From NCBI GenBank assembly GCA_024278275.1, contig JAJRTN010000071.1, positions 1-62,344 on the forward strand: DNA of 62,344 nt, given 5' to 3'. Made by a program: the position numbers and the translations under genes. Shown here in pieces: positions 1,104 through 39,081 of this stretch; positions within the stretch are counted from its first letter, which is position 1; the number at the start of each line of letters is the position of its first letter. Origin of the DNA: Candidatus Hydrogenedentota bacterium. GTDB taxonomy: Bacteria > Hydrogenedentota > Hydrogenedentia > Hydrogenedentales > JAJRTN01. Below the pieces are notes generated by a model. The model ran no database searches, was not told the origin of the DNA, and worked only from the letters and a program-made list of their open reading frames with translations.

Positions 1104-1739
1104 ATGATGGCCCGTACCGACGATCCCGGCCGGGAGGGCGTGATCATCGCCGGGGTACAGCCCCTGTCACCGGCCGTGGCGGCGGGCATACGGCCCGGCG
1201 ACACGCTCCTCGCCGTGAATGGATCCCCAACCAACGCCCGCTTCGAGGAGGACCTGCCCGCGGTGCGCAAGCTGATAGCGGATCTGCCCATCGGCGAGGA
1301 GGCCACCCTTGTCCTTCTCCGCGGAACGGAACAGATCATTGTTCACGCACGCACGGAGGAGCTGAGTCAGCTTAAAGGCGATCAGCTCGAGTTCACGGAA
1401 TGGGCGTTCACGGCCTCGAGCCTGACCCCGGAGATCGTGCAGCGCGCGCGCCTCGACTCGAATCACGGCGTATGGGTGTCCGGCGTACAACCCGGGGGCA
1501 CGGCCGCCCAGGCCGGCTTGCGCACGGGCGACATCATTCTGTGGGTGGACCAGAAGAACGTGGAGAACCTGTCCCAGTTCCGGCGCACCTACGAGGAACT
1601 GGTGGCCTCGGCCAAGCTCCGCGTCCTTCTCTACGTGAAGCAGGGCGCCCTTACCCGTTTCGTTCTCGTTAAGCAGGACGGGAACGGCGTCACCGTGGAA
1701 AATGCGCCGAGCGAAGGAGATTCGTCCCATGCTGAGTAG
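1104..1739 (+). CDS. HtrA-like protease, C-terminal PDZ part (same frame, after the TAG)
   Basis: This is the continuation of the gene at 345-1049 in the identical frame; the open frame begins right after TAG 1049, and the ATG at 1104 is only the first available start. It encodes two PDZ-like modules. The first contains GVQPLSPAVAAGIRPGDTLL and the second GVQPGGTAAQAGLRTGDIIL, both typical PDZ substrate-binding segments of HtrA proteases. It has no signal peptide of its own and no clear ribosome site, so it is unlikely to be a separate functional gene. Its 3' end overlaps the start of the next gene (ATG 1729), which suggests translational coupling within an operon. Confidence 0.75.
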   Translation: MMARTDDPGREGVIIAGVQPLSPAVAAGIRPGDTLLAVNGSPTNARFEEDLPAVRKLIADLPIGEEATLVLLRGTEQIIVHARTEELSQLKGDQLEFTEWAFTASSLTPEIVQRARLDSNHGVWVSGVQPGGTAAQAGLRTGDIILWVDQKNVENLSQFRRTYEELVASAKLRVLLYVKQGALTRFVLVKQDGNGVTVENAPSEGDSSHAE

Positions 1740-3111
1740 TTTGATAGTCCTTGCCGCGCTCACGACGCAGACCGCCGCCGCCCCGGGCCTTTCCCAGGCC
1801 GTGCTCAAGGGCGCCTATGAGCAGGTCACCCCCGCCATGTGCCTCGTTCGCTACTCCAGCGAGATCACGAATCCCGCCAGCGGCCAGGTTTCCCGGCGTG
1901 ACAGCAGCGCCGTGGGCCTGCTGGTCTCAGCCGACGGACTCGTCATGGCCCATGGACACATGGTACTCGACAACGCACGGCCTTTCAGCATCACGGTCAC
2001 CGTGGGCTGGGGCGAGGATGAAAAGGAATACGACGCGGTTCTCTTGCGGAAACCGGATGACATCAACGTGGTCTTCCTGCGCATCGAAGGCGCGGATCAT
2101 CCCCCTTTCCCCTATGTCCGCTTCGCGCGGGAAACCGCTTTGGACGTGGGGTCCCCCGTGGCCCTTTTCGGGGTGCTCCCCGAGGCCCTGGACAATGTGC
2201 GCGCACTGCGCGTGGCCTATGTCGGCGCGATACTCCAAAAACCCCGCACCACCTACTGCCTCGACGCGCCGGTCAGTTTCGGCTACGTGGGTGGTCCCGT
2301 GATCAACAGCCGGGGCCGGGTCGTGGGCGTTCTCGGATTCGATCTCAGCCCCGGTGAAGGCGGCGAGTTGCATACCCGCAGCGGCTACCCCCTTATCTAC
2401 CAGGCCGCCCTGTTCCGCAAGTATATCGCCAACCCGCCGGGCGACAAGGCGGTGGACGACAAGACGCCCGACGCGTGGCTTGGGGTTTACACCCAGCCCC
2501 TCACGGAAGACCTGGCCGCCTACTGGGGTTTGCGCGACGAAGGCGGCCTGGTGGTGAGCACGGTGGTGGCGGGTTCTCCGGCGCGGGCGGCCGGTCTCCT
2601 TTCGGGCGACGTGATCACCGCCTTCGACGGCACCCCCATCAAGGCCCGGGTCGACCGGGACGTGATGGCCTTCACCAAGCTGGTCCGGGATACGGGACCG
2701 GGCAAGCAGGTTAATATCAGGGTTCTGCGGAACGGCGAACCCAAAACCATTACCGTTGAACTGGGCATACGGCCCCCGTCGAGCCGCGATGCCGGTGAAT
2801 ATGAGGACAAGGTCCTGGGGCTTACCGCCCGGGAAATCACCACGGACGTGCGCATCGCCCTCAACCTGCCCGAGGATGTGAAAGGCGTGATTGTTCGCCG
2901 CGTGAAGTCAGGCGGTTCGGCGCAACTGGCCCGCATACGGCCCGGCGTGATCATCCTCTCCGTAGGCGATTACGGTATCGAGAGCCTGGACGACCTTAAA
3001 GCGGCCGTGGCCAAGCTCGCCGAAACCAAGCCGAAAGAGGTGTCCATTTTCGCCCGTTTCGGCCCGGGCACGGGTTTCTTTCGTCTCGAACCACGCTGGA
3101 ACGACAAGTAG
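1729..3111 (+). CDS. HtrA-like PDZ protein with degenerate active site (probable pseudoprotease)
   Basis: This 460-residue exported protein starts at ATG 1729, with GAAGGAGA upstream and a short signal peptide (MLSSLIVLAALTTQTAAA). Residues about 20-220 have the trypsin-like fold of HtrA proteins, but the Ser loop GNSGGP is replaced by GYVGGP, with Val187 where the nucleophile should be. Histidines (75, 77) and aspartates (110, 111) remain near the other triad positions. Two PDZ domains follow (GSPARAAGLLSGDVITAF and a second ending near GVIILSVGDYGIESLDDL). It overlaps the 3' end of the active-protease gene by 11 bases. It probably acts as a chaperone-like or regulatory partner rather than a protease; that role is inference. 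Confidence 0.8.
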   Translation: MLSSLIVLAALTTQTAAAPGLSQAVLKGAYEQVTPAMCLVRYSSEITNPASGQVSRRDSSAVGLLVSADGLVMAHGHMVLDNARPFSITVTVGWGEDEKEYDAVLLRKPDDINVVFLRIEGADHPPFPYVRFARETALDVGSPVALFGVLPEALDNVRALRVAYVGAILQKPRTTYCLDAPVSFGYVGGPVINSRGRVVGVLGFDLSPGEGGELHTRSGYPLIYQAALFRKYIANPPGDKAVDDKTPDAWLGVYTQPLTEDLAAYWGLRDEGGLVVSTVVAGSPARAAGLLSGDVITAFDGTPIKARVDRDVMAFTKLVRDTGPGKQVNIRVLRNGEPKTITVELGIRPPSSRDAGEYEDKVLGLTAREITTDVRIALNLPEDVKGVIVRRVKSGGSAQLARIRPGVIILSVGDYGIESLDDLKAAVAKLAETKPKEVSIFARFGPGTGFFRLEPRWNDK

Positions 3112-3140: not shown

Positions 3141-3193
3141 AACCTGACCCGGCGCAGCCGGAATCATCTCCGCGGAGAACCGTGGTTCCGAAG
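3141..3193. repeat. Dispersed intergenic repeats (two short families)
   Basis: Bases 3141-3165 (AACCTGACCCGGCGCAGCCG and following) match the reverse complement of 24938-24962 with a few differences. Bases 3174-3193, GGAGAACCGTGGTTCCGAAG, recur exactly at 44201-44220 and centre on the palindrome GAACCGTGGTTC. The position is between convergent genes. Confidence 0.7.
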
Positions 3194-3196
3194 CAT

Positions 3197-3262
3197 GGTG
3201 GGCCTTGGCCCACCATGGCCCCCTTTCCAAGGGAGGCTGTTTCGTCGTCAGGGTTTCAGTCC
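3197..3262. repeat. Mosaic palindromic repeat copy (GGTGGGCCTTGGCCCACC type)
   Basis: The perfect palindrome GGTGGGCCTTGGCCCACC lies at 3197-3214, with three more paired bases on each side. The downstream 48 bases (3215-3262) are closely similar to the spacer at 13924-13971. The second palindrome present in the 13.9 kb copy is missing here, so this looks like a truncated element. The position is just beyond the PDZ protein stop and before the convergent HD-GYP gene. Confidence 0.75.
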
Positions 3263-3308
3263 AGGCGGTTCTTCGACTTGCCGGGAACGGCCTTTTTGCC
3301 AATGGCGC

Positions 3309-5042
3309 TTACGGCGTCGGAGCGGCGGGCGTGGGACTGTAGCCGCCGCTGGCGCTGACCCGTTCCCCGAAATAGGCGTCGTTCTTGAACCCAAGGCGAA
3401 TGGTGCGGTGACACACGTGGCACTCGAAGGTGTCGCCGACCTCCTTATCCTCCGGCGTGCGGATATGGGTGCTGCAGAAAGGGCAGGCCACGCTCTTCTC
3501 GTCCGTGGCGTAGTAATCCTGCAGAACCTGGTCTATCTTGCCGCCCCGGTAAGCCTTGAGCAACGCATCCACGACCTCCGGGTCGAACTGGGTGCCCCGG
3601 CCTTCCTCGATGATGCTGATTCCTTTCTCGGCGGGAAATCCCTTGCGGTAGGGACGGTTGCTGGTGAGGGCGTCGAAGGTATCGGCCACGGCGACCACGC
3701 GGCCCTCGATGGGAATCTTGTCGCCCGCCAGCTTGTAGGGGTAGCCCTTTCCATCCCAACGTTCGTGATGGTAGAGGCAGTAGGGGATGAGGGGATGGAG
3801 GAACTTGATGTCCCGCATCATTTCGGCGCCCCGCTCGGGGTGTACCTTGATCTGCTCGTACTCCTCGTCGGTGAGCTTGCTGGCCTTGAGCAGGATGCCG
3901 TCGGGCACGGCGATCTTGCCCACGTCATGGAGCACCACGCCCATGCGGACTTCTTCGAGCTTCTCTTCCGTCCAGCCCATCTCGCGGGCGATGGCCAGGG
4001 TGAAGTTGGTCACACGCCAGGTGTGGCCCACCGTGTAGTGATCGCGCATTTCCACGGCGTTGGCCAGACCGATAAGCATGTCATTATAGGCCCGCTTCTG
4101 ACCTTCCCAGAATTGGACGTTGCGGATGGCCGTGGCGGCGCCCCCCGCCAGGGCCACCAACAGCTCCAGGTCGCCGGTAACGAAGGCGTTGGTGGTACCC
4201 CGTGTATCGACATAGATGACGCCCAGGCAAAGATCCTGGTGCGTAAGCGGCACGCACATGGCGGAGGAGATGTTCTGCGAGAAAATACTGGCCCCGGCCT
4301 CGAAGCGCGCATCGCCCGCGGCATCGTAGGTAATCACCGCCTCCCCCTTTTCGAGGGCCCGGTTCACGATGGTTTGACTGATGGTGATGTCCTGGTCCTG
4401 CTGACCGGACTTGATGTACTCCGTGACCAGCTCGCCCGTGTCCTCGTCTTTCAGGATGATCACACCGTTGTGGGCGTGGACCAGGGTGAAGATCTGGTCC
4501 ATGGTCTTTTCCAGAAGCCGCTTGAGGTTCTGCTCGCTGCTAATCGTGCGGAGCGCCTCGTAGACCGCCTGAAGACGCTCCTGCGTCTGCCGAAGCTGGT
4601 CCTCCGTGGCCGTGCTTTTGGGTGCCGCGAAAAAGGTCTCGTACACGTTGGCCGCATCGGCCGATTCAACGCGTTCATCCCCGCTTGCCGCAGCGAAACG
4701 CACCCCGCTGTCGCTCTTAACCGCGGGGGGCGCGGGGGTCTCGGAGGGTACCGCCGTGGACTCGAAGCGAAGCTCCTGCGTGCCCATGCGAATCACGTCA
4801 CCGTGGGAAAGCTTGTATTCCAGAACCCGCCGATCCCCCACGAACGTGCCATTGCCGCTGCCCAAATCCCGCAGAATCGTGCCTTTGTCGCTCTGTTCAA
4901 TCAGTGCGTGCTTACGCGAGATCTGAAGGTCGTCCAGATGCAAATCGCTGTCGGGATTCCGGCCAATGGTAAGCCGGCCATCTATGGGGTATTCCCGTTC
5001 CCGCAGGGGCCCGGTAAGAACCACCAGTTTCTCCTCGCTCAT
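3309..5042 (-). CDS. FHA-GAF-HD-GYP signalling protein with C-terminal Cys4 zinc ribbon
   Basis: This 577-residue cytoplasmic protein starts at ATG 5042, with GAGGAG 7 bases upstream. Residues about 1-90 form an FHA phosphothreonine-binding domain (IGRNPDSDLHLDD, ISRKHALIE, GSGNGTFVG). A helical linker and a GAF sensor domain follow at about 165-320. An HD-GYP domain follows with HDVGKIAVPD and HHERWDGKGYP, the signatures of cyclic-di-GMP phosphodiesterases. The C-terminus has two Cys pairs (CPFC and CHVC), probably a zinc ribbon. The expected role is to link Ser/Thr phosphorylation and a small ligand to c-di-GMP breakdown. The exopolysaccharide operon lies divergently next door, a plausible c-di-GMP target, but that link is inference. 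Confidence 0.88.
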   Translation of the reverse strand: MSEEKLVVLTGPLREREYPIDGRLTIGRNPDSDLHLDDLQISRKHALIEQSDKGTILRDLGSGNGTFVGDRRVLEYKLSHGDVIRMGTQELRFESTAVPSETPAPPAVKSDSGVRFAAASGDERVESADAANVYETFFAAPKSTATEDQLRQTQERLQAVYEALRTISSEQNLKRLLEKTMDQIFTLVHAHNGVIILKDEDTGELVTEYIKSGQQDQDITISQTIVNRALEKGEAVITYDAAGDARFEAGASIFSQNISSAMCVPLTHQDLCLGVIYVDTRGTTNAFVTGDLELLVALAGGAATAIRNVQFWEGQKRAYNDMLIGLANAVEMRDHYTVGHTWRVTNFTLAIAREMGWTEEKLEEVRMGVVLHDVGKIAVPDGILLKASKLTDEEYEQIKVHPERGAEMMRDIKFLHPLIPYCLYHHERWDGKGYPYKLAGDKIPIEGRVVAVADTFDALTSNRPYRKGFPAEKGISIIEEGRGTQFDPEVVDALLKAYRGGKIDQVLQDYYATDEKSVACPFCSTHIRTPEDKEVGDTFECHVCHRTIRLGFKNDAYFGERVSASGGYSPTPAAPTP

Positions 5043-5173
5043 GGGGCATCTCCTCGCTGTACCTTCGTGCGGGCCTTCCACGGGGAACGGGTGCGACCCT
5101 CTTCAAACCATCTTATAGCATGAATAGCCCTTGAAGCCAAATCATGCCCTTGGCAAAAGGTTTTTGCCGCCGG

Positions 5174-5347
5174 GAAATTCCGTGCAGATGGTCACGAAAA
5201 CATGCTTGCCCCACCTTCCCGTCACCGTCGTCCCCCGGCGAAGGCGAAGCTCCATGATAATGTATCCGCGGATGGCGCAGATGAACGCCGATTCTCCCGT
5301 TCCCACGCAGGGCGTGAAAAAGGGCGAAGGGTGGGCCTTGGCCCACC
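5174..5347. repeat. Composite intergenic repeat block in the 5.1-5.7 kb gap
   Basis: There are three parts. Bases 5174-5201 (ending ATGGTCACGAAAAC) recur at 45099-45124 and, inverted, at 62071-62096. Bases 5228-5316 match the reverse complement of 14002-14090. Bases 5330-5347 are the palindrome GGTGGGCCTTGGCCCACC. The last two parts, with 13 bases between them, form a unit of about 120 bp whose inverted copy is 13973-14090. I see no gene in 5082-5428. Confidence 0.75.
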
Positions 5348-5428
5348 CTGCTTCACCATGGAGCGCCCTGTTGGCGCGGAACACGTGCTGCCAACGGGCC
5401 TGCAGGAGTACACCCCCACCGCCAAATG

Positions 5429-5457
5429 TTGACACTTCGGCAGTACTCGTCTAAAAT
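5429..5457 (+). promoter_or_regulatory. Strong sigma70-type promoter of the exopolysaccharide operon
   Basis: TTGACA (5429-5434), a 17-base spacer and TAAAAT (5452-5457) make an almost consensus promoter. The nearest downstream gene on this strand is the ExeA-like ATPase at 5734, so transcription would produce a leader of about 270 bases. No other promoter of this quality is seen before the operon. Confidence 0.75.
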
Positions 5458-5733: not shown

Positions 5734-6750
5734 ATGGACGAAACGCAAGCACATATCGAGTTCCTCGGCCTCCGTGAACAACCTTTCGCGCCCACGGCCG
5801 ATCCTGTTTATTTCTATGCGACTCGCGAGCACAAGGAGTGCCTGTTCCGCCTGTGGAACAGCATTGATTCGGGCCATGGCATTGCCGTGGTATTGGGCAA
5901 CTACGGCACGGGAAAAACCACGCTGCTGCGCAAGCTCATCACCGGCATGGCCGCTGATCCCGAGCGATACCACGCGGCGGTAATCGGCTCCCCCATCCCT
6001 TCGTGGACGAGCTTCGCCCTGCTTGAGAACATCGTCGCCCAGTTTGGCTTGCGCCCTTCGACCCCGTCTTACGTGGCCTACATGGATGCCCTGAACCGGC
6101 ACCTGCTGGCCAACCGAAACCGTATCTGCACCCTTATTATCGACGATGCCCAGAACCTGAACAAACGGGGACAGCTTGAACTCTTGCGGCTGGTGCAGAA
6201 CCTGGAGACCCAACAGCGAAAATTGCTCAACCTGGTGCTGTTCTCGCAGCTTGAGTGGGCGGAGGTGTTGCGCGCCGCGCCGAATTTCCATCAGCGCGTA
6301 AACCTCACCTATACGCTTGGCGCCATCCAGTTTGAGGAAACCCGCCAGTTTATCGCGTTCCGGCTGATGCAGGCGGGCGCGCGCGAGGACGAAGGCCCCA
6401 CCTTCGAGGAAGGCGCCCTTCGCGCCATACATGCCTATGCCGAGGGTATCCCCCGTGTCATCGTGACCCTGTGCCGTAACAGCCTCCTGGTGGCCTCACA
6501 GCTTCGGGAGCGGGTCATCACGGCGGACATGGTGCTTCACACCATCGACAAAACCACCTTGCCCGACCCCGAGAAACGGGTCCGGGTCGTAGCGGCCATC
6601 GCCGAGCATGCCGTGTCCGCCGACGGACAACGGGTTCAGACCCCCGCCGGGGAGGATCCGGGGTCACTGGACGCGCGCGCGCGTGATCAACGCGCGGCGC
6701 GTATACTGCTCCAGGCCGGACGTGAAAACCAAAGCGTGGAATCAGCATGA
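5734..6750 (+). CDS. ExeA/GspA-type AAA ATPase of the exopolysaccharide locus
   Basis: This 338-residue cytoplasmic AAA+ ATPase has Walker A GNYGTGKTT at about residues 53-61 and Walker B LIIDDAQNL near 133-141. The opening (HIEFLGLREQPFAPTADP) is typical of the ExeA family. Such ATPases occur in type II secretion and in exosortase-type polysaccharide loci, where they are thought to help place outer-membrane complexes. It is the first gene of the operon and its stop overlaps the next start (ATGA at 6747-6750). The next-but-one gene encodes a secretin-like pore, which fits an assembly role. No peptidoglycan-binding domain is seen C-terminally. Confidence 0.85.
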   Translation: MDETQAHIEFLGLREQPFAPTADPVYFYATREHKECLFRLWNSIDSGHGIAVVLGNYGTGKTTLLRKLITGMAADPERYHAAVIGSPIPSWTSFALLENIVAQFGLRPSTPSYVAYMDALNRHLLANRNRICTLIIDDAQNLNKRGQLELLRLVQNLETQQRKLLNLVLFSQLEWAEVLRAAPNFHQRVNLTYTLGAIQFEETRQFIAFRLMQAGAREDEGPTFEEGALRAIHAYAEGIPRVIVTLCRNSLLVASQLRERVITADMVLHTIDKTTLPDPEKRVRVVAAIAEHAVSADGQRVQTPAGEDPGSLDARARDQRAARILLQAGRENQSVESA

Positions 6751-7250
6751 GCGCCGAGGAAGCACAAGACAACGCCGCCCGGCAACTTGACGGCCCGGTA
6801 TCAAACGAACCCGATGCCATCGAAGGGAAGTTGATGGACCGCATCGGGCCGGATGCCCGGCTTGACAGCGGGATTCCCGAGGATCAGCGTGGGGGAGACC
6901 TCGATTTCGTGGAGATGAGCGGCATCACGCTTTCACCCCCCCTGCCCGACCCCAGCCCCGCCGACGCACCGTCCCCGAACGCGAATGATCCCCTTGGCTT
7001 TTACGAGGCCGGTGTGATCGACGTGGACGGGGCCATGGAGGCTGCCGCGGAAAAGACGGATCTATCCCCCGGAAAAATGCGTTCGCCGTCGGCCGACTCT
7101 TTCCGCGAAATCGCCGAAGGCCTGTCCGAACAGAACTTTGCCGGCGCGAAAACATCCACCGTCGAACCCGACGGCTCGCCGTCCTTACCGCGAACACCGG
7201 ACGCCCCCCCCTTCCCGCGACGCGGCCCGACGAGCGCAACGAGAACGTAG
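6747..7250 (+). CDS. Acidic/proline-rich N-terminal part of a membrane TPR protein (frame broken at a C8 run)
   Basis: The start overlaps the stop of the ExeA-like gene (ATGA). The first 150 or so residues are acidic, disordered and cytoplasmic in character. At 7204-7211 there is a run of eight C. Beyond it this frame turns into Arg-rich nonsense and stops at TAG 7250, while the -1 frame continues with the same acidic, Glu/Pro-rich composition (ATASASPIEKENEATEAAPE) into the gene at 7388-8581. The two pieces are therefore one gene of about 610 codons with one base lost at the C run. This may be an assembly error, phase variation or slippage. Confidence 0.75.
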   Translation: MSAEEAQDNAARQLDGPVSNEPDAIEGKLMDRIGPDARLDSGIPEDQRGGDLDFVEMSGITLSPPLPDPSPADAPSPNANDPLGFYEAGVIDVDGAMEAAAEKTDLSPGKMRSPSADSFREIAEGLSEQNFAGAKTSTVEPDGSPSLPRTPDAPPFPRRGPTSATRT

Positions 7251-7387
7251 CAGAGAGCACCCCAGAGGCAACGGCATCCGCTTCGCCCATCGAAAAGGAG
7301 AACGAGGCGACGGAGGCCGCACCGGAGGCCGGCGAACCGGACCTGGATGATTACCTGGACACGGTTGTTCCGGAGACGCCCCGCGGG

Positions 7388-8581
7388 ATGGAGAACCCCG
7401 CCGAAGCGCCCGCGACCGAAGGACGCCATGACGCCGAGGTTTCCGTCACTCCGGCCGCCGACACGCAATTAGCCGAGGTGGAGCAGCTCCTGCAGGCATT
7501 GGAGACGCAGCCGCGGGAGATTGAGCCCCCCGGGAGCCGCGAGGTTCCGCAAACGCTTTCGAATGAACCGCCCGGCTCATCGCCCGACGAAGAAGAAGAG
7601 AAGCCTGAACTTCACCATGAATTGAGGAGCCGTCCCGCCCGGCACCGCTCTCGACGGCATGGAACCCGCCGCAGACGGCGGGCCATCCGGTGGACCATTT
7701 ACGCGGTATTGTTCGTGCTCATCATCGCGGGCGGCGGTTTGGGCGGTTCCTACGGATACCGACATTTCCTGAAGCCCGTCATGGGCAAGCCGGAGGCGCT
7801 TCTTCAGGAGGCGCGGGTATTGTCCGGTAAAGGCCGGTTTGCCGACGCGGCCGACCGGTTTCTTCTCTACGCGGAACGGGTGCCCGATGGACTGGCGCGG
7901 CCCGATGCCCTCTTCAACGCCGCGTGCGCGTTGCAGCGGACGGAGGGGGCCGGCACCGCGACGGAACGGCAGGCGCGTCTGCACCGGGCGCTCGCGGTCT
8001 TCGAACAGTTCATAAAGGACTATCCTGATCACGTCAAGCGGAGGCGCGCCGAGATTTTGTCCGGCGTGGTGCTCATGGAGCTGGACGAGTATGATCGCGC
8101 CACGGAGGTGCTGCGAGACGCGCTGGCCCGGGCCGAGGACAAGCTGTCACAACTTCCCATCCTGCGAACATTGGCGCGGGTCCATGCCCAAGCGGGTCAG
8201 TACGAGCAGGCGGAATCCATGTATCTTCAGGCGGCCGTGCTGTCCCAAAACCTCACGCCCGAGGTGGATTACGACGAGTTGGGGCAACTCTTTCACGCCC
8301 TGGCCCGGATGGCGCCGAATGAAACGGAACGACAGGCGCGGCTCGAAAAGGCAGTGGAATACCTGACCCGCGCCGCGGAAACCCGCGGGATTTCCCCCGA
8401 TTACCGGGACGACCTGAAGGAACGGATTGCCATGTTGAAGGAGCCCATCGCGCCGTCGCGTGACCCTGCCGGGAAAACAACGGCGCCAGGGGCGAACGAA
8501 GCCCCCGGCATGGGTGCAGGATACGGCGGCAAAACCAATCCGGCAAAGGAAACACAACCGCCTGAAACGCCCGTGCAGTAA
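7388..8581 (+). CDS. Transmembrane TPR protein of the exopolysaccharide locus (C-terminal part after frameshift)
   Basis: This frame is open from about 7205, and the ATG at 7388 is only its first available start; the true protein begins at 6747. It has an acidic linker, an Arg-rich stop-transfer segment, and one transmembrane helix (IYAVLFVLIIAGGGLGGSYG, about residues 100-119). A periplasmic part of about 270 residues follows, built of TPR-like helix pairs (for example DALFNAACALQ, EILSGVVLMELDEYDRA, ARVHAQAGQYEQAESMYLQA). The C-terminal 50 residues are low-complexity. Between an ExeA-like ATPase and a secretin, such a protein could bridge the inner membrane to the pore in the periplasm; this is inference from architecture and position. 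Confidence 0.75.
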   Translation: MENPAEAPATEGRHDAEVSVTPAADTQLAEVEQLLQALETQPREIEPPGSREVPQTLSNEPPGSSPDEEEEKPELHHELRSRPARHRSRRHGTRRRRRAIRWTIYAVLFVLIIAGGGLGGSYGYRHFLKPVMGKPEALLQEARVLSGKGRFADAADRFLLYAERVPDGLARPDALFNAACALQRTEGAGTATERQARLHRALAVFEQFIKDYPDHVKRRRAEILSGVVLMELDEYDRATEVLRDALARAEDKLSQLPILRTLARVHAQAGQYEQAESMYLQAAVLSQNLTPEVDYDELGQLFHALARMAPNETERQARLEKAVEYLTRAAETRGISPDYRDDLKERIAMLKEPIAPSRDPAGKTTAPGANEAPGMGAGYGGKTNPAKETQPPETPVQ

Positions 8582-8644
8582 GGTGCGCAAGAACGCCTGG
8601 TGTCGAAGCGGGGCGTTTTCGCGCGGTCCGGGAGACCAAAGAAG

Positions 8645-10114
8645 ATGAAACATGGATCGTATGCGGTGTGGCGGGCCATGGCCGCGTTGCTGTTGGCCTG
8701 TCCAGCCATGGCCCAGTTGACAAAAGACGCCCCTTTTCAACCGGGGGACGTGGTATTTGTCCATGTGCAGCGTGAGCCGGAGTTATCGGTCACCACACAA
8801 ATCGACGAAAATGGAAATATCGCCATACCACGCATCGGCAACGTGACCATAAGCGGCCTGTCGGCGGGGGAAGCAGGCGCCCGCGTCGCCACGGCCCTTA
8901 CCACCTACCTGAAACACCCCCGCGTGACAGTCTCTCGAAGCATGGCGGGCTCATTTTCATCGAACACGCCCCGGGCGGACAACATGAAGACACGGGTGGT
9001 GCCACTCCAGAACTCCAACGCCGAGGTGCTTTTCAACGCCCTTAACGGCATGTCCACCCAAGGCGGAAGCATCGGTTTCGATCCCGACACCAACTCGCTT
9101 ATCATCACCGACACCGAGGCGACCTTGTCGGAAATGCTCGCGGTGGTGGATACACTGGACAGCATGCAGAGCCAGGTGACCCAGGTGCGTATCGAAGCGA
9201 AAATCGTCGAGGTCGAAAAGGGCGCGATCAAGGAAGTGGGCATACGCTGGTTTGCGCAGGGAAACGAAGCCTCGGGAGGCTATGTTCCGGGGGCCCGCCA
9301 GTCCGCCCGGGTCAATTCCGTCCGCGGTTTCAGCGACCCCACCTACAATGAGCAGTTGGATTCCGGCGATTTCCGAAACAATACCGTCGCGAGACGCCGC
9401 TTCGTGGATGAAAACAACTTCGACCGGCGTCTTCAAGTACCGATCCAGATACCGGGACCCGGCCAGTTTTTCTTCGGCTATGCCAACAGCGGCATCGATT
9501 TGGGCGCCATGATCGATGCCCTCGCCGCGGACAACAAGGCGGAAGTTCTGGCCGCGCCCTATACCGTCACGGTGAACCACAAACCGGCGCACATCGAAAT
9601 GACCGAGAAGTTTCCCTTCAGTGAATTGGGAACGGCGGGCCTGTCGAGTTTTACAACGACCCGCTTCGTTGACGTGGGGATCACCCTCGATGTGTTGCCC
9701 CATGTGCGGCGGGACCCCACCGGCGAGCGGTATATCCAGGTGGAACTGGAGCCGGAAGTTTCCACGGCCACGTCGGTCGTGAACGGCGTGCCCGTCCGGT
9801 CCGTGCGGCGCAGCAAGGGCACGCAGAATGTTCGGAGCGGACAAACGATTGTTATTGGCGGGATCATTCAGAGCGACACCCGGGACGTGGTGCAGAAGGT
9901 GCCCGGATTGGGCCGGATTCCCCTGCTCGGAAGCCTCTTCAAGCATACCGAGAAAAGCCGGGGCACACGGGAACTGATGATCTTCGTCACGCCCACGGCG
10001 CTTGATCGCCCGGAGGATATCCACTGGAACCGCATGCTGGATCTGCCCAACATCGAAGCACGCGTGGACCTTCTCAAGCCGCTCGACACCCCGGTTGAGA
10101 CCCGCAAGGAGTAG
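8645..10114 (+). CDS. Hybrid outer-membrane pore: Wza-like export domain fused to a secretin
   Basis: This 489-residue protein starts at ATG 8645 (GGGAG upstream) with a signal peptide ending PAMA-Q at about residue 23. Residues about 30-105 resemble the polysaccharide-export domain of Wza/GumB proteins (FQPGDVVFVHVQREPELSVT, NGNIAIPRIGNVTISGLSAG). A secretin N-domain follows (NAEVLFNALNGMSTQ, DPDTNSLIITD, VRIEAKIVEVEKGAIKEVGI). The C-terminal secretin barrel region runs from about 305 to 470 (VGITLDVLPHV, IVIGGIIQSDTRDVVQKVPG, IPLLGSLFK, ELMIFVTP). Normally these are two separate pore families; here the Wza entry domain feeds a secretin barrel. The operon with Wzc-like and Wzy-like genes argues for polysaccharide rather than protein export. 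Confidence 0.85.
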   Translation: MKHGSYAVWRAMAALLLACPAMAQLTKDAPFQPGDVVFVHVQREPELSVTTQIDENGNIAIPRIGNVTISGLSAGEAGARVATALTTYLKHPRVTVSRSMAGSFSSNTPRADNMKTRVVPLQNSNAEVLFNALNGMSTQGGSIGFDPDTNSLIITDTEATLSEMLAVVDTLDSMQSQVTQVRIEAKIVEVEKGAIKEVGIRWFAQGNEASGGYVPGARQSARVNSVRGFSDPTYNEQLDSGDFRNNTVARRRFVDENNFDRRLQVPIQIPGPGQFFFGYANSGIDLGAMIDALAADNKAEVLAAPYTVTVNHKPAHIEMTEKFPFSELGTAGLSSFTTTRFVDVGITLDVLPHVRRDPTGERYIQVELEPEVSTATSVVNGVPVRSVRRSKGTQNVRSGQTIVIGGIIQSDTRDVVQKVPGLGRIPLLGSLFKHTEKSRGTRELMIFVTPTALDRPEDIHWNRMLDLPNIEARVDLLKPLDTPVETRKE

Positions 10115-10121
10115 GCGCGCC

Positions 10122-12380
10122 ATGGCGCTTGAGATACCCAAAGTCGTACAGACGGAGCGGCCCCAGCCGGAGGGAAACCAGTTCCGCTTTCTCATCAACC
10201 TGGTTTTCGGCTACTGGCGGATCATCTCGCTGAGCATGATGGCGGGCGCGCTGATTTTCTGCCTCATCGCGTTTTACCTCAAGCGGGCGCCGGAACGCAC
10301 CTGGACCACCTACGCGGACCTGGAAGTGCGGCAGACGCCATGGGACAGCGAAATCCTGCGCAATCTCCGGGAGGTGCGCGTGCTTCCCGCTTCCGCCGAG
10401 GAATTGGTGCGGGCCGAAAACGAGGAGGCGGTCGCCCAAGACGTGGTCGAAGCGCTCATAGAACGGGACCTGGCCGAGGGCGGCCCCTACAGCATCCTGG
10501 TGACCAAGGAGGAGGTTCGCGACAAGGCGGCGGAGGTGATGGAGAAGCTCCGCATCGAGGCCGTGCCCAACTCGCCTTTCATCCGCATCACCGCCGAGGG
10601 CTGTGCCAGCGCCGCCGAAGCGGAGGATCTCGCGGAATTCGGCGCCCGCGTGTTCTTGCGCCGAAACCGGAATCTACACCTCGAAGAAGGCCGGGAGGCA
10701 CACAAGTTCATCAAGGCCCGCCTTGAGCAATTGCAGGAGCAGCTCTCCCGCGCCGAAATCGCCGAATGGAAATACAAGAAAGAGGTGGGCTTCCGCGCTT
10801 ACGGCGACGTGGGCGAGGAACTGGCCAAAATGGAACGGGACATGGCGGAAGTAAATGCCATGAAAGAAAGCCTCACCACCAAGCTGGCGGAGCTGAACGC
10901 GGAGCTGGAGACCAACCGGAAACAGTTTCCCGAGTCCCTGGGGAATGTGACCGACAATGTGGTGGACACGCTGATTGACGATCTGGATGAATTGCTCCAG
11001 GAAAAGCTTTCCATGAGCACCTACCGCACCCCCGAACACTGGGAAATGGTGGCCCTGGAAGAGCGAATCGTCGAAAAACAGCAAGCCATCCTGGAGGCCG
11101 AACAGCAGGCGGACACCGGAATACCCGGCGGCAGCGATATGTGGCGGCGGCGCAAAGCCCTGCGGGAGGAGGAAATCAAGCTGCGGGTGCAACTCACGGC
11201 CCAGGAGATTCGTGCCCAGGCGTTGCGCAGGCAGTTCGAGGACATGGTCCCCCGAATCCCGGACCTCGCCGAGAAGAAATTGCAGGCCGACAAGCTGGCG
11301 CAGGAAACGCAACGCATCCGCAAGGAGTTCGACACGCTCTTTGAACAGGAGTGGGAACTGCGCAGCATACTGGGCCGGGGCACGGGACAACTCGAACGGT
11401 ACCGTTCGGTGAAGGCCGCGGCCTTCGTCGATTTCGGCATGGTGGGCGGACGGTTCTGGGCGGCCCTTGCCATTGGCCTGGCCGCGGGCGGATTCATCTC
11501 CCTCATGCTGGTCCTCATGTGGGAGGTAAACGACACCTCGATCCGCAGCATCGAGGACGTGAACCAGTACCTGGGACTGGAGGTGCTCGGCACCATCCCC
11601 CAGATGCGCTTCGGCAAGCCCCGTTTGGGAAAACGCCGACGCGCCACCTACGTTACCACCGTGGACGAAGAACAAATCGATGCCTGCATCGTCACGCAAC
11701 ACGACCCTAAATCCCCCGTGTCCGAGGCCTACCGAACCCTGCGGACCAATTTCCAATTCGCCACCCTCAATCTGAAACCCCGCACCGTCATGGTCACCAG
11801 CGCGGTGCCCGGGGAAGGAAAATCCACCACGGCGGTGAATCTGGCGGTCACCATGGCCGACCGCGGCCTTCGGGTGCTCATTGTCGACACCGACTTGCGG
11901 CGGCCCAACGTACATCGTGTACTGCGCATGGAACGCGGCCCCGGCCTGGCCGACCTCCTGCGCGAGGGCCTCGACATCCACGCCGTGGTGCGTCCCACGC
12001 GCGTGGACAACCTCCACATGATCTCCAGTGGTCGCGTGCCGCCCAATCCCTCGGAACTGATCGGCTCGGACCGCATGGCCGAGGTCATGGAGCAACTGGG
12101 GAAGGACTTCGACCTGGTCATTTGCGACGCACCCTCGGTGCTCGTGGTGACGGACCCGGTGCTTCTGGCGACCCACGTGGACACCTGCATCATGGTGGTA
12201 ACGGCCAACTTCGCGCGCCGCGAGACCATCATGCGGGCCAACAAGCTGTTGCAGACCGCCAACGTGAACATTGCCGGCGTGGTGGTGAACGCCCTCGAAA
12301 CGACACGACGCAACTATTACTACTACTACTATTACTATGAAGACGGCGGCGCGCGAACCCGGAAATGGTATCACCTCTAA
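10122..12380 (+). CDS. Wzc-like polysaccharide co-polymerase and BY-type tyrosine kinase
   Basis: This 752-residue protein starts at ATG 10122, with AAGGAG upstream and 7 bases after the previous stop. It has an N-terminal Wzz-type part with a first transmembrane helix at about residues 30-53, a long periplasmic coiled coil (about 190-420) and a second helix near 445-470 (ALAIGLAAGGFISLMLVLMW). A cytoplasmic bacterial tyrosine kinase follows: Walker A SAVPGEGKSTT, Walker A' VDTDLRRPN and Walker B LVICDAP. The C-terminus has eight consecutive tyrosines (codons 12315-12338), the autophosphorylation tail of this family. Such kinases control chain length and export of capsule or exopolysaccharide by cycling phosphorylation. 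No cognate phosphatase is seen in the window. Confidence 0.92.
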   Translation: MALEIPKVVQTERPQPEGNQFRFLINLVFGYWRIISLSMMAGALIFCLIAFYLKRAPERTWTTYADLEVRQTPWDSEILRNLREVRVLPASAEELVRAENEEAVAQDVVEALIERDLAEGGPYSILVTKEEVRDKAAEVMEKLRIEAVPNSPFIRITAEGCASAAEAEDLAEFGARVFLRRNRNLHLEEGREAHKFIKARLEQLQEQLSRAEIAEWKYKKEVGFRAYGDVGEELAKMERDMAEVNAMKESLTTKLAELNAELETNRKQFPESLGNVTDNVVDTLIDDLDELLQEKLSMSTYRTPEHWEMVALEERIVEKQQAILEAEQQADTGIPGGSDMWRRRKALREEEIKLRVQLTAQEIRAQALRRQFEDMVPRIPDLAEKKLQADKLAQETQRIRKEFDTLFEQEWELRSILGRGTGQLERYRSVKAAAFVDFGMVGGRFWAALAIGLAAGGFISLMLVLMWEVNDTSIRSIEDVNQYLGLEVLGTIPQMRFGKPRLGKRRRATYVTTVDEEQIDACIVTQHDPKSPVSEAYRTLRTNFQFATLNLKPRTVMVTSAVPGEGKSTTAVNLAVTMADRGLRVLIVDTDLRRPNVHRVLRMERGPGLADLLREGLDIHAVVRPTRVDNLHMISSGRVPPNPSELIGSDRMAEVMEQLGKDFDLVICDAPSVLVVTDPVLLATHVDTCIMVVTANFARRETIMRANKLLQTANVNIAGVVVNALETTRRNYYYYYYYYEDGGARTRKWYHL
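12315..12338 (+). repeat. Run of eight Tyr codons (TAT/TAC) in the kinase tail
   Basis: Eight successive TAT or TAC codons encode the tyrosine cluster. Mixed codon use shows that the amino-acid run is selected rather than produced by simple triplet slippage. The run is followed by an acidic pair (ED) and a short basic end (RTRKWYHL). Confidence 0.9.
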
Positions 12381-12414
12381 TGGCGGCGTGATGCCGGGAG
12401 TGAAACGAGGCTAA

Positions 12415-13905
12415 GTGGCCCTATTCCGTTCAGAGCGGGGCATCGGTCGAGGCGAGGTCGCCGAAAGTCGTTTGGAGGCGCCCCTGTTCGCCGGCTTCAT
12501 GCTGGTCTGCGGCATGATCCTGGCCGCCCAGCATTTCTACCTGGGCAACCAGAGTATCACCTTTGCCCTGGCGGTCAGCCTGCTCGTCTTCGGCGCCACC
12601 GTGGTACGCGTCGAGTATGGCCTCTACGTGCTCATCATAGCCATGCTCCTTTCCCCCGAAATCGATGCGGGAACCGCCATTTCGGGCGAGCGAAACCTCA
12701 ACATCCGCTACGACGACGTACTTATTATCGTCATCTTCCTGGGCGTCATGGTGAAACTCTCTTTCGAAGGCCGTCTTTCCCTGTGGCAACCCAGCCCGAT
12801 CAACGCCGGCATTGCCACCTACTATGCCCTGTGCGTTCTGTCCACCCTCTTGGCCTGTCAGCGGGGCCTGGGCGCCTGGGACGGCCGGTCGGCCTGCTTC
12901 ATCATGCTGAAGATGCTTGAGTTCTACCTGCTCTTTTTCCTCGTCGGTCACGCCACGCGCGACCTCCGGGACGTGAAAAAAATCCTGGTCCTGCTCTTCG
13001 GCGTGGCCCTCGTCGTCAGCCTCTACGGCATATACAGCATCGGCGCCACGCCCCGCGTGAGCGCGCCTTTCGAGAAGGGAGGCACCGAGCCCAACACGCT
13101 GGGCGGCTACCTGGTTATCATCATCTGTCTGTGCGTGGCCCTTTGGACCCAGGCGCCCCGGCTTTGGAGAAAACTTCTTCTCCTCGCCATTGGCGGCATC
13201 ACTTTCGTGCCTTTTCTCTACACCTTGTCCCGGGCCTCCTACCTGGCCCTCGCCGTGGGTATCGCAACCATTGCCGTGATCAGCCGTAACCTGATCATTG
13301 CCGCGGTCATGGTATTGGTGCTGGCCTTCTCTCCCATTCTGATGCCCAAGGAGGTCAAGGAACGCGTGGCATACACCATTCAGCACCAGAGCGGCTACGA
13401 GGTGGCGAACACGGGTATCTCCGTGGACAAATCGACGGCGGAACGTTTCCAGGTTTGGCGCAAGGTGAAATACATTCTCGGCCGGGGTCCCGTTCTCGCC
13501 GCGCTGGGCGGCGGCGTGTCGTGGGAGTCCGTGCTGGACAGCCAGTATGCACGGGTTATTCTCGAAACAGGCCTGTTGGGACTGGCCGCGTTCTTGTTCC
13601 TCCAATTCACTGTTCTGCGCACCACGCGAAACGCCTACCGTTGGACGGAGGACTGGCTGAGCCGCGGCATCGCCATGGGCACCTTCGCCGCAACCCTGGC
13701 CCTGATGGTCCACTCCGTGGGCACCATCTCCTTCCTCATCGTCCGGATCATGGAGCCTTACTGGTTGCTTGTGGCCCTGTGCGTCAATATCCGTAACATG
13801 GCCCTGGCACACCACTGGGCACGCGCACGCGCCGAAAACGCCCGCGGGGAAAGCGAAACGCCGGCACCCCGACCGCCATTCCCACAAACGGATGTGTCGA
13901 TTTAG
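12415..13905 (+). CDS. O-antigen polymerase/ligase-like membrane protein (Wzy/WaaL family)
   Basis: This 496-residue inner-membrane protein starts at GTG 12415 and is built of about ten to twelve hydrophobic helices. It has the long periplasmic loop typical of O-antigen polymerases and ligases (about residues 300-385). The Wzy_C-type segment FLYTLSRASYLALAVGI precedes the loop, and LGRGPVLAALGGGVSWESVL lies within it. It would join or polymerise undecaprenyl-linked repeat units at the periplasmic face. It is the last gene of the operon after the Wzc-like kinase; its TAG stop directly touches a palindromic repeat at 13906, and no T-rich terminator follows. Glycosyltransferase and flippase genes for this pathway are not in the operon. 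Confidence 0.85.
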   Translation: MALFRSERGIGRGEVAESRLEAPLFAGFMLVCGMILAAQHFYLGNQSITFALAVSLLVFGATVVRVEYGLYVLIIAMLLSPEIDAGTAISGERNLNIRYDDVLIIVIFLGVMVKLSFEGRLSLWQPSPINAGIATYYALCVLSTLLACQRGLGAWDGRSACFIMLKMLEFYLLFFLVGHATRDLRDVKKILVLLFGVALVVSLYGIYSIGATPRVSAPFEKGGTEPNTLGGYLVIIICLCVALWTQAPRLWRKLLLLAIGGITFVPFLYTLSRASYLALAVGIATIAVISRNLIIAAVMVLVLAFSPILMPKEVKERVAYTIQHQSGYEVANTGISVDKSTAERFQVWRKVKYILGRGPVLAALGGGVSWESVLDSQYARVILETGLLGLAAFLFLQFTVLRTTRNAYRWTEDWLSRGIAMGTFAATLALMVHSVGTISFLIVRIMEPYWLLVALCVNIRNMALAHHWARARAENARGESETPAPRPPFPQTDVSI

Positions 13906-13990
13906 GGTGGGCCTTGGCCCACCATGGCCCCTTTTCCAAGGGAGACGGTTTCGTCGTCAAGGTTTCCGTCTTGGTGGGCCAAGGCCCACC
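13906..13990. repeat. Complete mosaic repeat: two inverted palindromes with spacer
   Basis: GGTGGGCCTTGGCCCACC (13906-13923) and its inverse GGTGGGCCAAGGCCCACC (13973-13990) flank a 49-base spacer related to 3215-3262. The pair could fold into a long stem. The layout resembles bacterial interspersed mosaic elements. Other copies or fragments lie at 3197, 5330, 39002-39081 and 42230. Confidence 0.85.
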
Positions 13991-14001
13991 CGCACTACCC
14001 C

Positions 14002-14090
14002 CACACCCTGCGTGGGAACGGGAGAATCGGCGTTCATTTGCGCCATCTGCGGATACACTATCATGGAGTCCCGCGTTCCCGGGGATGACG
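14002..14090. repeat. Inverted copy of the 5228-5316 repeat
   Basis: Read on the minus strand, this segment matches 5228-5316 through the shared core GATGGCGCA, GAACGCCGATTCTCCCGTTC and CCACGCAGG. It sits 11 bases after a palindrome, mirroring the layout at 5.2-5.35 kb. The remaining bases to 14217 show no gene. Confidence 0.8.
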
Positions 14091-39001: not shown

Positions 39002-39081
39002 GGTGGGCCTTGGCCCAACTATGACCTTCGTTTGGAGCGGTGCCTGCTTCATTATTAAGGTTTGGTGGGCCAAGGCCCACC
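39002..39081. repeat. Mosaic palindromic repeat pair, diverged spacer
   Basis: GGTGGGCCTTGGCCCAAC (39002-39019, one base off the palindrome) and GGTGGGCCAAGGCCCACC (39064-39081) face each other across 44 bases. The spacer differs from that at 13924-13971, so the palindrome ends are the conserved part. Confidence 0.75.

Follow-up and report, generated by a model that had tools for sequence, protein, structure and literature searches.

Folded proteins, pili and filamentous phage are known to leave the cell through secretins, and sugar polymers through OPX proteins. On the basis of sequence alone, a gene at positions 8645-10114 (forward strand) of a contig from a Candidatus Hydrogenedentota bacterium, analyzed here over its whole 62,344 nucleotides and referred to as the window, had been proposed to join a Wza-type export domain to a full secretin core. 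The gene is the third in an operon that encodes, in order, an ExeA-like ATPase, a membrane TPR protein, the fusion, a Wzc-type protein and a Wzy-like protein. The operon probably specifies an envelope-spanning polysaccharide exporter with the OPX-secretin fusion as its outer-membrane channel, although the export of a glycan is inferred.

The 489-residue fusion has a signal peptide, after which Pfam analysis identified a Poly_export domain corresponding to Wza D1 (PF02563, residues 28-97, positions 8726-8935, E 1.1e-16, 61.2 bits against a cut-off of 28), a secretin N1 domain (Secretin_N, PF03958, residues 116-177, positions 8990-9175, E 1.4e-12) and a full secretin core (PF00263, residues 292-451, positions 9518-9997, E 1.8e-38), and no STN, N0 or SLBB domain. 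In NCBIfam, residues 111-459 matched GspD- and PilQ-type models, and the first 100 residues matched two polysaccharide models, EpsE and pepcterm_export. Sequence searches of the PDB matched the core to secretins; with the N-terminal domain alone as the query, 9n9a, a polysaccharide export protein, was matched at 1.3e-08 and E. coli Wza at 3e-04. The AlphaFold prediction, which was made for a monomer only, had block-mean pLDDT values of about 88-96 for D1, 80-95 for N1 and 77-92 for the core, and residues 199-284 were unresolved. Foldseek aligned the modeled core with the GspD, PilQ and InvG structures (E about 1e-15) and the modeled N-terminus with the Myxococcus Class-3 OPX protein WzaB (9n9a) at an rmsd of 1.1 A over 70 columns with 36% identity, and also with Wza. 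The coordinates and domain order given by the sequence-only reading were right. A lipobox (LLAC) was considered in the signal peptide, but those of the relatives mostly resemble signal peptidase I substrates.

It could be argued that the profile has mislabeled a normal N0 domain of a secretin, since N0 and Poly_export are both small alpha/beta domains found at the same position, and the N0-N1-N2 structure of XcpQ appeared lower in the Foldseek match list. This explanation was rejected as scarcely credible in view of the strong Poly_export match, the close superposition on the WzaB crystal structure and the concordance of the homologues: all 22 aligned relatives of the fusion, which are 42-57% identical to the window protein, contain the same three domains and no others, with SLBB absent at E 0.01 and STN/N0 likewise absent. 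Moreover, nine ordinary secretins scanned in the same way all matched STN and/or N0 at their N-termini. The assumption that the domain is not N0, on which the original proposal depended, was thus borne out. In the ordinary secretin L084, N0 spans residues 34-97 and N1 residues 116-177; the OPX domain of the fusion, at residues 28-97 ahead of an N1 domain at 116-177, therefore occupies the place of N0.

In the published description, every OPX protein carries one or more SLBB domains after its Poly_export domain, and the family is divided into three classes by the Poly_export, SLBB, Wza_C and GfcC domains (Saidi et al., PMC9603273). As far as can be judged from its sequence, the fusion is a hybrid of the OPX and secretin families. 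It meets the Poly_export and co-polymerase-neighbor criteria for an OPX protein and, without SLBB, fails the published definition; it meets the core (PF00263) and N1-type (PF03958) criteria for the secretin superfamily and lacks the N0/STN domain of GspD- and PilQ-type secretins. It resembles the OPX proteins of Classes 1-3 (E. coli Wza, KpsD and M. xanthus WzaB/EpsY) in the Poly_export D1 fold and in its Wzc-type co-polymerase and Wzy-like neighbors, but SLBB, GfcC and Wza_C are all missing and the remainder of the chain is secretin N1 and barrel. Similarly, it resembles GspD, PilQ and InvG in its N1 domain, complete core and predicted fold, but has Poly_export in place of N0 and is encoded without secretion or pilus partners.

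Three mechanisms of export across the outer membrane are recognized, namely Wza-like proteins, composite OPX/beta-barrel translocons and synthase barrels (PMC9601211). Like the composite EpsY/EpsX translocon, the fusion combines an OPX D1 domain with a beta-barrel for the outer membrane and is paired with a Wzc-type protein; however, EpsY/EpsX is made of two proteins, the barrel being a separate single chain of 18 strands (PMC9601211, PMC9603273), whereas the fusion is one chain with a barrel of the oligomeric secretin type. A separate 18-stranded barrel gene, as membership in the composite type would require, is not found beside the fusion gene, and Pfam scans of the operon genes detected no barrel family, nor was there any further conserved operon gene. 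By analogy, the fusion may work most like a one-chain composite OPX/barrel translocon, for which there are no functional data.

The fusion was found, at full length or as contig-end fragments, in 28 of the 68 Hydrogenedentota whole genomes, representing 21 genera and 6 families by hand count. The relatives are about 42-58% identical to the window protein, and in a tree of 93 secretins the fusions formed one clade with a long stem and 100/100 support. These three results ruled out an assembly chimera or a chance fusion. In 26 loci of relatives searched by tblastn with the window proteins, the ATPase-TPR-fusion-Wzc-Wzy order was unbroken wherever the contig reached, as was the position of the Wzc-type gene immediately 3' of the fusion; the complete row of five genes was present in 14 relatives, and the remaining loci were interrupted by contig ends. 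The search for the same gene order, which had been suggested as a check, was thus positive, and every readable operon neighbor in the 26 loci was of a glycan type, so that the hybrid does not accompany type II secretion genes there.

Outside the phylum, a two-domain profile of Poly_export and N1 had no match at E 1e-20 in five other phyla, represented by 1,543 genomes (384 Omnitrophota, 396 Acidobacteriota, 379 Myxococcota, 85 Poribacteria and 299 Pseudomonadota), with Planctomycetota and Verrucomicrobiota not specifically sampled, and none in 22 further genomes. No place covering both Poly_export and N1 was found among 72,556 plasmid records, and Poly_export was undetected in the best other-phylum secretins (the best 80 loci) of a GTDB-wide scan of 84,980 species with secretin-core motifs. 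The larger of these searches scored only the best candidates per genome, and no search included a positive control; each group takes its phylum name from the record title of the locus through which it was reached.

The first operon gene (5734-6750, forward strand) encodes a cytoplasmic ExeA-like AAA ATPase (AAA_22, E 1.1e-17), which is also first in the relatives (56-74% identity), and overlaps the next ORF by 4 bases. The nearest NCBIfam model was that of the XrtA-associated ATPase (TIGR03015, E 6.9e-46, below cut-off), and no PDB relative was found by sequence search. Pfam and NCBIfam scans and transmembrane prediction indicated neither a peptidoglycan-binding domain nor a transmembrane segment, and the protein is therefore closer to the ATPases of exopolysaccharide/exosortase loci than to ExeA of type II secretion. 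An ExeA-type ATPase and a membrane TPR protein are indeed encoded upstream of the fusion, as previously noted, but their description as secretion-system-like was overstated.

The membrane-anchored TPR protein, the conserved second operon gene, is encoded at 7388-8581 (forward strand; TPR_12, E 5.6e-09), with a transmembrane segment at about residues 100-118 and TPRs at about 170-330. The earlier reading needs the correction that this gene is split in the window: the ORF at 6747-7250 (forward strand) encodes the N-terminal cytoplasmic part, and the two ORFs correspond to a single gene of about 600-850 aa in relatives (one ORF in L042, L044, L045 and L046), with a long N-terminal part ahead of the transmembrane segment. 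The frame of the TPR part is open upstream of 7388, and the two frames diverge near a run of eight C at 7204-7211, which suggests an assembly error or a real frameshift; these and programmed slippage could not be distinguished from the data.

The gene at 10122-12380 (forward strand), 7 bases downstream of the fusion, encodes a Wzc-type polysaccharide co-polymerase with a C-terminal BY-kinase (TIGR01007, 182.5 bits, cut-off 108) and a C-terminal tyrosine cluster that is conserved in all aligned relatives. Two transmembrane segments are separated by about 395 residues, and solved Wzc structures were matched at E of about 1e-32 to 1e-34. The last gene (12415-13905, forward strand) encodes a polytopic membrane protein with about 13 hydrophobic segments that resembles Wzy/O-antigen ligase (TIGR03097, E 1.7e-09), and 16 of 19 relatives matched PF04932. 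TIGR01007 was the only NCBIfam model to exceed its cut-off in the operon. The presence of Wzc-like and Wzy-like genes downstream was thereby confirmed, the latter, on sequence evidence, as a member of the O-antigen ligase/polymerase superfamily in which ligase and polymerase were not distinguished. The Wzy-like protein could be a ligase rather than a polymerase, which would count against polysaccharide export, as does the absence of Wzx and glycosyltransferase genes from the operon.

It is possible, though unlikely, that the operon instead encodes a machine for glycoprotein secretion. The Wzy-like protein would then be a protein O-oligosaccharide ligase, its glycosylated products would leave through the secretin, and the Poly_export domain would contact the Wzc-type protein. 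Proteins are the normal cargo of secretins, the top score of the Wzy-like protein was to a putative O-glycosylation ligase (TIGR03097), and ligases do occur within the Wzy/WaaL superfamily; on the other hand, the Wzc-type BY-kinase and OPX D1 belong to the chain-length and export machinery of polymer pathways, and the operon contains no GspC, GspE/F or pseudopilin genes, with GspD and PilQ encoded elsewhere in the genome.

PilMNOP genes are also missing from the operon, which consequently has none of the neighbors expected of type II secretion or a type IV pilus. Nevertheless, in about ten relative loci a gene for a PilT/PilU-family ATPase lies downstream of the operon on the opposite strand and convergent with it (for example, L044:14714-16237 and L040:4379-6013); this gene is absent beside the window operon. 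A pilus link is not excluded by these data and remains open, and the neighbor counts against polysaccharide export. Under such a link, a type IV pilus or other filament would use the fusion as an alternative pore, the Wzc-type kinase would regulate it and Poly_export would merely stand in for N0. The nearest outgroup of the fusions in the tree, although weakly placed, is secretin L147, which lies in a possible pilus-type gene row whose neighbors were not subjected to domain tests. We consider this explanation improbable, given the strand of the PilT-like gene, its absence at the window operon, the separate PilQ-type secretin in the genome and the lack of any pilin or PilC gene seen in the operon.

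In the relative loci, no other neighbor recurred as widely as the PilT/PilU-family gene and a gene for an FHA-GAF-HD-GYP-like regulator (Pfam HD_5, FHA and GAF), which is divergent upstream of the window operon (3309-5081, reverse strand) and in the same place in 14 relative loci. Its role in regulation of the operon is only suggested. A sigma-70-like promoter candidate upstream of the operon (TTGACA-17-TAAAAT, 5429-5457, forward strand, 11/12 matches) is weak, and shuffled sequence yielded equally many such sites.

A classic Wza or type II secretion system had been thought possibly missing from this genome, which proved incorrect. Poly_export was found in two genes, the fusion and one on contig C125 whose 450-aa product has a lipoprotein-type signal; a Wzc-type gene of its own comes next, making a classical Wza-Wzc pair. 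Seven secretin matches were found, one of which is the fusion. The secretin on contig C138 is PilQ-type, at least one is a GspD (contig C1, exceeding the GspD cut-off, with GspF over cut-off nearby), and a second secretin on C1 and those on C71 and C124 had no firm assignment. Replacement of a lost Wza or type II secretion system by the fusion was ruled out, since both kinds of pore are present. The hybrid is thus an additional machine, and its operon is, next to the separate Wza-Wzc pair, a second system resembling an exporter, with a pore of its own. XrtA/PEP-CTERM exopolysaccharide loci also have an ExeA-like ATPase, a BY-kinase and an O-ligase-like protein, but no exosortase lies beside the fusion operon; the exosortase of this genome is on contig C125 near the classical Wza-Wzc pair, which ruled out the operon as part of an exosortase locus, and several fusion-bearing genomes had no exosortase or only weak matches.

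Two of the unassigned secretin loci are unusual. On contig C124, two adjacent small secretin-core proteins of 345 and 392 aa (L064:8853-11062) were aligned by NCBIfam with only the C-terminal part of GspD. The secretin on contig C71, which is cut by the contig end (L065:16104-17837), has glycine/serine-rich repeats at its N-terminus, GGSSGGFGGSSGGF, and a very long branch in the tree.

Polysaccharide export by the fusion operon is favored by the domains, the WzaB- and secretin-like model, the N0 position of the OPX domain, the gene order in 26 loci, the genuine Wzc-type BY-kinase, the separate PilQ and GspD genes, and the presence of Wzx-family flippases elsewhere in the genome. In the mechanism that we propose, a Wzx encoded elsewhere would flip the repeat units, and the Wzy-like protein would polymerize them with Wzc in control. 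As in Wza, the D1 ring of the fusion would dock on the periplasmic region of Wzc; this contact would replace the one between N0 and the inner-membrane platform in type II secretion. The chain would then cross the N1 ring and exit by the gated barrel of the secretin, with the TPR/ATPase pair probably assembling, energizing or regulating (gating) the pore. Ring formation and polymer transport by the fusion are inferred and have no experimental support. In OPX proteins, SLBB is believed to line the path of the polymer, and its absence here counts against export. Wza and Wzc are octameric and secretins usually have 12-15 subunits, a possible symmetry mismatch that remains to be reconciled. The earlier notion of a distinct glycan-export machine with a secretin exit is accordingly supported by domains, model and operon, with the export step still an inference.

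An OPX-secretin fusion was not described in the literature searched, which did not include preprints and most subscription papers. The word "secretin" does not occur in the texts of PMC9603273 and PMC9601211, and since no secretin model was used in the searches of these surveys, their hits could include such fusions unnoticed. On balance, we favor a further outer-membrane route for polysaccharide, next to synthase barrels, composite OPX/beta-barrel pores and the alpha-helical pores of the Wza type, in which the secretin barrel of a single-chain fusion exports the glycan and a Wzc-type co-polymerase docks on OPX D1 in place of N0. Provided that it functions as its parts suggest, this route is absent from those published surveys, and it would give the OPX scheme a further class and add an export system to a phylum that is known chiefly through metagenomes. 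The natural, conserved fusion suggests that N0 and OPX D1 can act as exchangeable docking modules that choose which inner-membrane machine is served, and raises the questions of whether polysaccharide can cross a secretin and how an octameric Wzc is matched to a pore with the symmetry of a secretin.

Elsewhere in the window, a trypsin-PDZ (HtrA-like) protease gene at 180-1739 is broken by an in-frame TAG at 1047-1049, and a second trypsin-PDZ gene lies at 1702-3111. A dispersed palindromic repeat with the core GGTGGGCCTTGGCCCACC had 11 matches against 0.05 expected, at 3178-3268, 5234-5350, 13887-14084 and 39002-39081. The repeat is thus present on both sides of the operon, which is bracketed by inverted 83-nt arms at 5234-5316 and 14002-14084; it is absent from the loci of relatives and was also found on contig C138 of the same genome.
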